Below the pieces are notes generated by a model, which was not told where the DNA came from, did no database searches, and worked only from the letters and a program-made list of their open reading frames with translations. A stretch of 64,000 nt of DNA from contig JAURCJ010000002.1 in NCBI GenBank assembly GCA_030828505.1, positions 62,001 through 126,000 on the forward strand, read 5' to 3'. The stretch is from Alphaproteobacteria bacterium (GTDB taxonomy: Bacteria > Pseudomonadota > Alphaproteobacteria > TMED109). A program made the translations under genes and the position numbers. Below are positions 2,368 through 53,358 of the stretch, piece after piece. The first letter of the stretch is position 1; each line of letters starts with the position of its first letter.

Positions 2368-2407
2368 ATTTTTTATAAAAATTACCAAATTGGTAAAAAA
2401 ATGTCAA
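2368..2407 (-). promoter_or_regulatory. pyrB promoter region with perfect palindromic operator
   Basis: On the minus strand a TTGACA box (2407-2402, overlapping the ruvX stop) is followed by the palindrome TTACCAA-T-TTGGTAA (2396-2382; 7-bp arms, 1-nt centre) and by TATAAA (about 2377-2372), shortly before the pyrB ATG at 2358. The spacer from TTGACA to TATAAA is 24 bp, so the exact -10 is uncertain (TAATTT lies at 17 bp). The palindrome has the size of an Xre-family dimer operator, and the gene it precedes encodes such a domain. Palindrome seen; promoter and autoregulation inferred. Confidence 0.55.
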
Positions 2408-52728: not shown

Positions 52729-53358
52729 ATGAAATACTTACTTATAATATCCTGTCTTTTAATTACTTCAGTTGGCTGGAGTAAAGATATCACTTCTGAT
52801 GATTTGATAAAAAAAGAAGGGTTATATTATGAGAAGTTTACAGATGTTCCCTTTACTGGAAGTATCTCTGGGCAACAAAAGGGAAAAATAATTAAAGGAG
52901 AGCGAGTGGGTGTATGGCTATGGTATTATGAGAATAGTCAGTTACAATATAAATGGAATTACAAATACGGTAAAGAAGAAGGCAAATGGGAAATGTATTA
53001 TGAGAGCGGTGAGTTATGGAAGAAAGGTAATTATAAAGACGGTAAAAAAGACGGTGAACAGTTAAGTTATTGGGAGAATGGTCAGTTGGGAATAAAAGGT
53101 AATTATAAAGACGGTAAAAAAGATGGAGAACAGTTACATTATAATGAAAATGGTCAGTTAATATCAAAATGGAATTATAAAAATGGTAAAAAGGAAGATG
53201 AAAATATTCATTACTGGGAGAATGGTCAGTTATGGGTGAAAGAAAATTATAAAGACGGTAGAAAAGAAGGTAAAACTGTAGTGTATAATGAGAATGGTCA
53301 GTTTGAAAAAACTAAAATATACAAAGGTGGTAAGTTAATTGAAATTATACAACCCTAA
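52729..53358 (+). CDS. Secreted MORN-type repeat protein (YwqK-like)
   Basis: 209 aa. Signal peptide 1-18 (ending VGWS). From about 60 on it is a string of six or so repeats of 22-24 residues built around 'YWENGQL-x-KGNYKDGKKDGEQ', the variant MORN repeat of YwqK-type proteins. Two adjacent repeats are almost identical even in DNA (about 53026-53130), indicating recent duplication. Such proteins are often surface or periplasmic and sit in accessory regions. Function unknown. Confidence 0.75.
   Translation: MKYLLIISCLLITSVGWSKDITSDDLIKKEGLYYEKFTDVPFTGSISGQQKGKIIKGERVGVWLWYYENSQLQYKWNYKYGKEEGKWEMYYESGELWKKGNYKDGKKDGEQLSYWENGQLGIKGNYKDGKKDGEQLHYNENGQLISKWNYKNGKKEDENIHYWENGQLWVKENYKDGRKEGKTVVYNENGQFEKTKIYKGGKLIEIIQP

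Follow-up and report, generated by a model that had tools for sequence, protein, structure and literature searches.

A Conserved Promoter Dyad as the Probable Self-Operator of an HTH-Aspartate Carbamoyltransferase Fusion in Alphaproteobacteria

The pyrB locus and its products

Three genes lie in the order ruvX, pyrB, and pyrX on the minus strand of the stretch of DNA that was analyzed (64,000 nt, called here the window). Beyond the edge of the window come plsY, the next gene after pyrX, and topA. The pertinent features are collected in Table 1.

Table 1. Features of the pyrB locus, in coordinates of the window
Feature	Start	End	Strand	Remarks
pyrX, pseudo-dihydroorotase	1	1210	-	ATG at 1210 overlaps pyrB stop (ATGA); extends past window edge
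pyrB, HTH-aspartate carbamoyltransferase fusion, 383 aa	1207	2358	-	Likely ATG 2358-2356; stop 1207
ATCase catalytic domain, aa 79-376	1231	2124	-	NF002032, E=9e-119; TIGR00670
Flexible linker between HTH and ATCase, aa 62-70	2149	2175	-	pLDDT <50
HTH domain, Xre/Cro type, aa 3-60	2179	2352	-	PF01381; AF2 pLDDT mostly >90
Putative -10 hexamer TAATTT	2379	2384	-	17 nt after TTGACA; spacing read from the sequence
Operator dyad (predicted)	2382	2396	.	TTACC-N5-GGTAA; here a perfect palindrome, TTACCAAATTGGTAA
-35 box TTGACA	2402	2407	-	Invariant in 6/6 fused genomes; overlaps ruvX stop codon
ruvX (YqgF), upstream neighbor	2404	2904	-	PF03652, TIGR00250

The N-terminal part of PyrB had been described beforehand as an Xre-like HTH, and it is indeed recognizable as a domain of the Xre/Cro type by Pfam, AF2, and Foldseek. 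The Pfam model HTH_3 (PF01381, cut-off 23) gives 24.2 bits with the whole protein and 27.3 bits with the domain alone. Modelled by itself, the domain takes on a high-confidence fold (AF2 helices), and its Foldseek neighbors are CylR2, DdrO, and C.AhdI, with TM values of about 0.65-0.71 to Xre/lambda-repressor-like proteins and E-values that are weak, as expected for a short domain. Five helices and a score above the Pfam cut-off place the domain within the Xre/Cro-C1 type; its recognition helix comprises residues 26-34 (IATLSRYLS).

The larger part of PyrB is an aspartate carbamoyltransferase (ATCase), as judged by equivalog scores (396 bits vs. a cut-off of 263 for NF002032, 309.7 vs. 236.95 for TIGR00670) and by the presence in the alignment of the active-site motifs DSTRT, GDG.HEHPTQ, and LRLQ. 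Read from its sequence, this part of the protein is apparently catalytically intact. PyrX best matches the dihydroorotase (DHOase) of Aquifex (1xrf/3d6n), which assembles with ATCase into a dodecamer; in PyrX the metal-ligand positions are altered (GAN in place of HVH), with differences at the other ligand positions. An adjacent DHOase homolog without metal ligands characterizes class A2 ATCases, and this is the arrangement found here. Three relatives likewise have altered metal-ligand positions, and so in part does G007, whose PyrX retains more of the ancestral motif (ICAHLREPG, compared with GAN, NAN, or SAN in the genus of the window), so that the decay of the metal site can be traced.

A dyad within the pyrB promoter

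The gap between ruvX and pyrB amounts to 45 nt. Read 5' to 3' from inside the end of ruvX, the sequence runs TTGACA-TTTTTTTACCAATTTGG-TAATTT, then ATAGG, then ATG, with TTGACA (2407-2402) overlapping the TGA of ruvX (2406-2404). The preliminary description of this DNA had pointed to a perfect palindrome at 2382-2396, between TTGACA and the start codon of pyrB (2358), and there it lies, TTACCAA-N-TTGGTAA on the minus strand (TTACCAAATTGGTAA, which reads TTACCAATTTGGTAA on that strand). Its right half-site, GGTAA, extends into the putative -10 hexamer TAATTT. That hexamer resembles TATAAT only weakly, and the pyrB promoter is absent from a scan for consensus promoters. From the end of TTGACA to the end of the GG is exactly 17 nt in six pyrB promoters and also before two genes for related HTH proteins taken up below, one fused to a glutamine-synthetase-like (GS) enzyme (L055), the other standalone (L060). 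This exact spacing puts the dyad within the promoter spacer, its right arm entering the -10 hexamer.

An exact copy of TTACCAAATTGGTAA occurs only once in the 1.44-Mb genome, and the window contains only the one copy even when two mismatches are allowed. Palindromes of this size are nonetheless plentiful: 17 perfect, odd-centered 7+7 palindromes (7+1+7) are found in the window (28% G+C). A bare 7+7 palindrome is thus ordinary there, and it is conservation, not palindromy, that bears evidential weight; as a conserved element, the pyrB dyad is not ordinary. The 15-bp perfect dyad originally remarked upon is present here, but the element conserved in relatives is TTACC-N5-GGTAA only. Since the inner bases differ among relatives, the perfect 15-mer of the genome considered here is one version of that element.

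Co-occurrence of the dyad with the fusion

The order that contains the window was surveyed through 28 genomes, all of one family. HTH-PyrB was found in six of them, five from the genus of the window and one from a sister genus, and the five besides the genome of the window are marine MAGs (e.g., MarineAlpha9_Bin3, SP299, and SP94). Two more genomes of the genus, about 72-73% complete, gave no match to pyrB, and in G009 pyrB is truncated by the end of a contig, making its fusion state unreadable.

TTGACAT-N4-TTACC-N5-GGTAA stands at a fixed distance before pyrB in all six fused genomes. The ten bases of the arms and the seven bases of TTGACAT are invariant across these loci; across the same six, 3 of the 89 four-fold-degenerate sites of pyrB are invariant. 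The face-value probability for ten invariant arm bases is about 2e-15, a figure that is only rough because the motif was picked after being seen. The six genomes, moreover, come from two genera of one family and so do not count as six independent observations. TTACC-N3..7-GGTAA was not found upstream of any of 24 unfused pyrB genes, genera of the same family included. The co-occurrence of dyad and fusion that had been predicted from the window is therefore borne out.

One might suppose that the dyad is a chance palindrome in an AT-rich promoter, retained by nothing beyond constraint on the promoter itself, in view of the abundance of such palindromes in the window and the partial overlap of the dyad with the presumed -10 hexamer. 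However, the CC and GG are invariant though a sigma-70 spacer requires no such bases, at loci where so few four-fold sites have stayed the same; furthermore, unfused pyrB genes lack the dyad, and a near counterpart turns up repeatedly at unrelated genes that are fused to the HTH, as described in a later section. We find this explanation scarcely credible.

Alternatively, the dyad might act as RNA, either as an intrinsic terminator of ruvX or as an attenuator hairpin before pyrB. A hairpin of 5-7 bp with T-runs can be drawn, and the version in G007 folds better than most shuffled sequences (z -2.0). In the window, however, the fold comes to -4.2 kcal/mol (z -0.9), and a scan for terminators finds none, rather than the stable GC-rich hairpin plus T-run that would mark an intrinsic terminator or attenuator. 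The arms are invariant, and no compensatory pair changes are seen in them across the six fused genomes, which fits a site recognized by protein better than an RNA hairpin. Also, TTGACAT is conserved together with the dyad, and the T-run is lost in G007. A function at the level of RNA is in our judgment very improbable.

Search for other sites in the genome

A scan for further copies of the dyad at other loci had been suggested, and its outcome lends them no support. TTACC-N5-GGTAA occurs once, at pyrB, in each of the genomes G000, G001, G003, G006, and G007, and in G004 it occurs at pyrB and at one other place, an unlike match with a different center. For the reversed pattern, used as a control, the counts in these six genomes are 1-6. 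When up to two mismatches to TTACCRAAWYGGTAA are allowed, there are 13-19 matches per strand per genome vs. 29-60 for the reversed pattern; near-copies are thus rarer than in the control, with no excess. No second site, exact or mismatched, stands out genome-wide, and so the idea of a wider pyr regulon was dropped, and the dyad looks like a self-operator.

A 72-bp tandem repeat accounts for several of the near-copies in this genome and probably in relatives as well. In the window it occupies positions 52923-53333 (+), within an open reading frame (52729-53358) that encodes MORN/YwqK-like repeats of 24 aa (ENGQL..KGNYKDGKKDG).

The same HTH family on other proteins

A profile of the HTH was searched for in 385 Alphaproteobacterial genomes. 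It was found standalone and at the N-terminus of other proteins, which by domain search include MeaB GTPase, glutamine-synthetase-like ligases, RibBA, SucA (2-oxoglutarate dehydrogenase E1), and a TorD/nitrate-reductase-delta-like chaperone. HTH-SucA and HTH-TorD-like (L068 and L078) are single loci and possibly assembly errors. Outside the Alphaproteobacteria, a sample of 398 genomes of the phylum gave no HTH at E<=1e-5, and none was confirmed in viral contigs. The long PyrB of Burkholderia (PRK11891) was considered as an older HTH-PyrB and rejected, as the HTH alone fails the model and matches to the best members begin only at position 84. In a tree of the HTH, PyrB falls into one clade (100/99) and RibBA into one (94/65); its 64 columns are too few to resolve whether the HTH of PyrB derives from that of MeaB.

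HTH-MeaB (L052-L054 and L102-L123) is matched in 24 of the 32 genomes of another family of small-genome Alphaproteobacteria. All 23 of the HTH-meaB loci that could be read automatically carry TTAACC-N5-GGTTAA (a few with single substitutions of outer bases), centered 10-17 nt before the start of meaB, after the stop of an upstream mutase gene. Related dyads were also found with standalone HTH proteins (TTACCCGAAATGGGTAA for L059, CCCCATAATGGGTAA for L066, and TTATCCACAGTGGCTAA for L060) and before the start of two genes in which the HTH is joined to an unassigned C-terminal part (GTACCCAAAATGGGTAC for L065 and GTATCCAAATTGGATAC for L082). The last two are perfect, GTACCC-N5-GGGTAC in L065 and GTATCC-N5-GGATAC in L082. 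These two proteins and L071, 167-233 aa in length, have this HTH in common and C-terminal parts that look alike; in L065 and L071, Pfam recognizes nothing outside the HTH.

The HTH-RibBA fusions (L086, L091, L092, and L093) have other upstream dyads, that of L092 being AATTTTAAGT-TTG-ACTTAAAATC, and their recognition helix is also different. Of the HTH-GS fusions (L055, L056, L061, L062, L064, L069, and L085), some have CC-N5-GG dyads and the GC-rich ones do not. Their enzyme parts are nearest to gamma-glutamylputrescine synthetase or type III GS, falling below the cut-offs for the two that were tested.

Prediction of the pyrB dyad from meaB sites

A matrix was built from 17 distinct meaB sites only and run on the upstream regions of all other members of the HTH family, with P taken from dinucleotide shuffles. 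The pyrB dyad scores highest with this matrix in each of the six pyrB promoters (P 0.08 in G007 and 0.003-0.007 in the other five). Strong sites (P 0.001-0.002) also appear before L055, an HTH-GS gene, and before the genes for standalone HTH proteins L059, L060, and L066. Two of the upstream regions of the 24 unfused pyrB genes come to P of about 0.02, with best sites that lack the CC-N5-GG core. Before the GC-rich HTH-GS genes L056, L062, L064, and L085, no CC-N5-GG site rises above the shuffles, and more than half of the HTH relatives, mostly with other recognition helices or from GC-rich genomes, are without such a site. The CC-N5-GG rule is therefore not universal.

As the class also contains standalone members of this HTH family that have CC-N5-GG dyads (L059, L060, and L066), it is conceivable that a different, unlinked regulator binds the dyad at pyrB and that the fused HTH has some other role or none. 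But in the order of the window, the HTH model matches the PyrB fusion only, once per genome, and the dyad is found only alongside the fusion. Also, a dyad like it is seen in another family at meaB, which is fused to a member of this HTH family. An unlinked regulator is for these reasons unlikely.

Discussion

The preliminary description had proposed that pyrB-pyrX is autoregulated through the dyad, and the presence of the dyad at all six fused pyrB genes and at none of the 24 unfused ones, together with the dyads associated with this HTH family elsewhere, argues for that proposal. Insofar as sequences can tell, HTH-PyrB very probably switches its own gene off by way of the strictly conserved dyad in its promoter, and we hold with considerable confidence that the dyad would be the operator through which the protein represses its operon (pyrB-pyrX, and perhaps also plsY). 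Two HTH domains probably bind the two half-sites and thereby block RNA polymerase. With less confidence, we suggest that the signal is the state of subunit assembly or of ligand binding: repression would be exerted by HTH-PyrB that is free, unassembled, or loosened by nucleotides, and PyrB6-PyrX6 with bound substrate would not sit on the DNA. As to the effector, this is a guess.

Some Xre-type regulators are activators of transcription, and HTH-PyrB on the dyad could likewise activate, or could serve mainly to place the enzyme on DNA. But the dyad is situated in the 17-nt spacer and reaches into the -10 hexamer, a position that normally blocks polymerase. We consider a role other than repression quite unlikely.

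If HTH-PyrB does repress its own gene, then flux, assembly, and gene expression would be coupled within one polypeptide in ATCase, the textbook example of an allosteric enzyme, and such a coupling would suit small-genomed marine bacteria. Several other enzymes seem to be self-repressed through the same domain. It may be, and may equally well not be, that one small alphaproteobacterial HTH with an operator of the CC-N5-GG type has time and again been joined to metabolic proteins of unrelated kinds (ATCase, MeaB, GS-like ligase, RibBA, SucA, and TorD-like), each fusion repressing itself and reading its own ligand or assembly state, in effect a portable module for autoregulation. That several unrelated enzymes carry the HTH offers a natural series for studying how enzymes become regulators.

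Comparison with known systems

ATCase forms trimers, and in classes A1 and A2 a pair of these is linked by dimers of the dihydroorotase type (PMC7053772). In the class A2 complex of Pseudomonas aeruginosa, ATCase is joined by an inactive pseudo-dihydroorotase in a dodecamer that is destabilized by nucleotides, and without this partner the catalytic chain is monomeric (PMC7053772). The locus described here is similar in pairing ATCase with an inactive pseudo-dihydroorotase, PyrX being similar to the corresponding subunit in the complexes of Aquifex and Pseudomonas. However, the catalytic chain of P. aeruginosa has a short N-terminal extension of 11 residues and no HTH. In E. coli, carAB is controlled by PepA, PyrH, and PurR (PMC6245113), so there too, genes related to pyrimidines are under trigger enzymes. 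Regulation in that case is not by way of a fused DNA-binding domain, and pyrBI is governed by UTP-dependent stuttering, with no operator for ATCase.

BzdR consists of an N-terminal HTH, a linker, and a shikimate-kinase-like sensor domain that has lost enzymatic activity and senses benzoyl-CoA, and it has been argued from this case that regulators evolve when enzymes acquire DNA-binding domains (PMC3602430). HTH-PyrB is like BzdR in that a linker connects the HTH to an enzyme-derived domain, which in BzdR is the ligand sensor. It differs in that its ATCase, with its active-site motifs in place, looks intact and sits in the operon of its own pathway; HTH-PyrB would therefore not be a regulator of the BzdR type, where the enzyme domain is inactive.

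The lambda-repressor-like/Xre regulators, such as CylR2, DdrO, and C.AhdI, share the HTH fold with PyrB but are usually standalone and not fused to enzymes. It is common for regulators of the Xre type to bind dyads within their own promoters. Closer in principle are the trigger enzymes PutA, NadR, and BirA, in each of which one polypeptide is a working enzyme and a repressor of its own pathway gene or genes. A trigger enzyme combines a DNA-binding domain and an enzyme in one protein, as HTH-PyrB does at the level of sequence only, and acts at an operator within its own promoter, for which the conserved dyad in the spacer, co-occurring with the fusion, is a candidate. PutA, NadR, and BirA have other DNA-binding domains and other enzymes, the idea of enzyme plus repressor being common to all. 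In a handful of known cases, a biosynthetic gene is under the direct control of its own enzyme product, exerted through a DNA-binding domain fused to it. A literature search, with most subscription journals outside its scope, turned up no report of HTH-PyrB (HTH-ATCase) or of HTH-MeaB, and we know of no case of an ATCase repressing its own gene through a fused DNA-binding domain.
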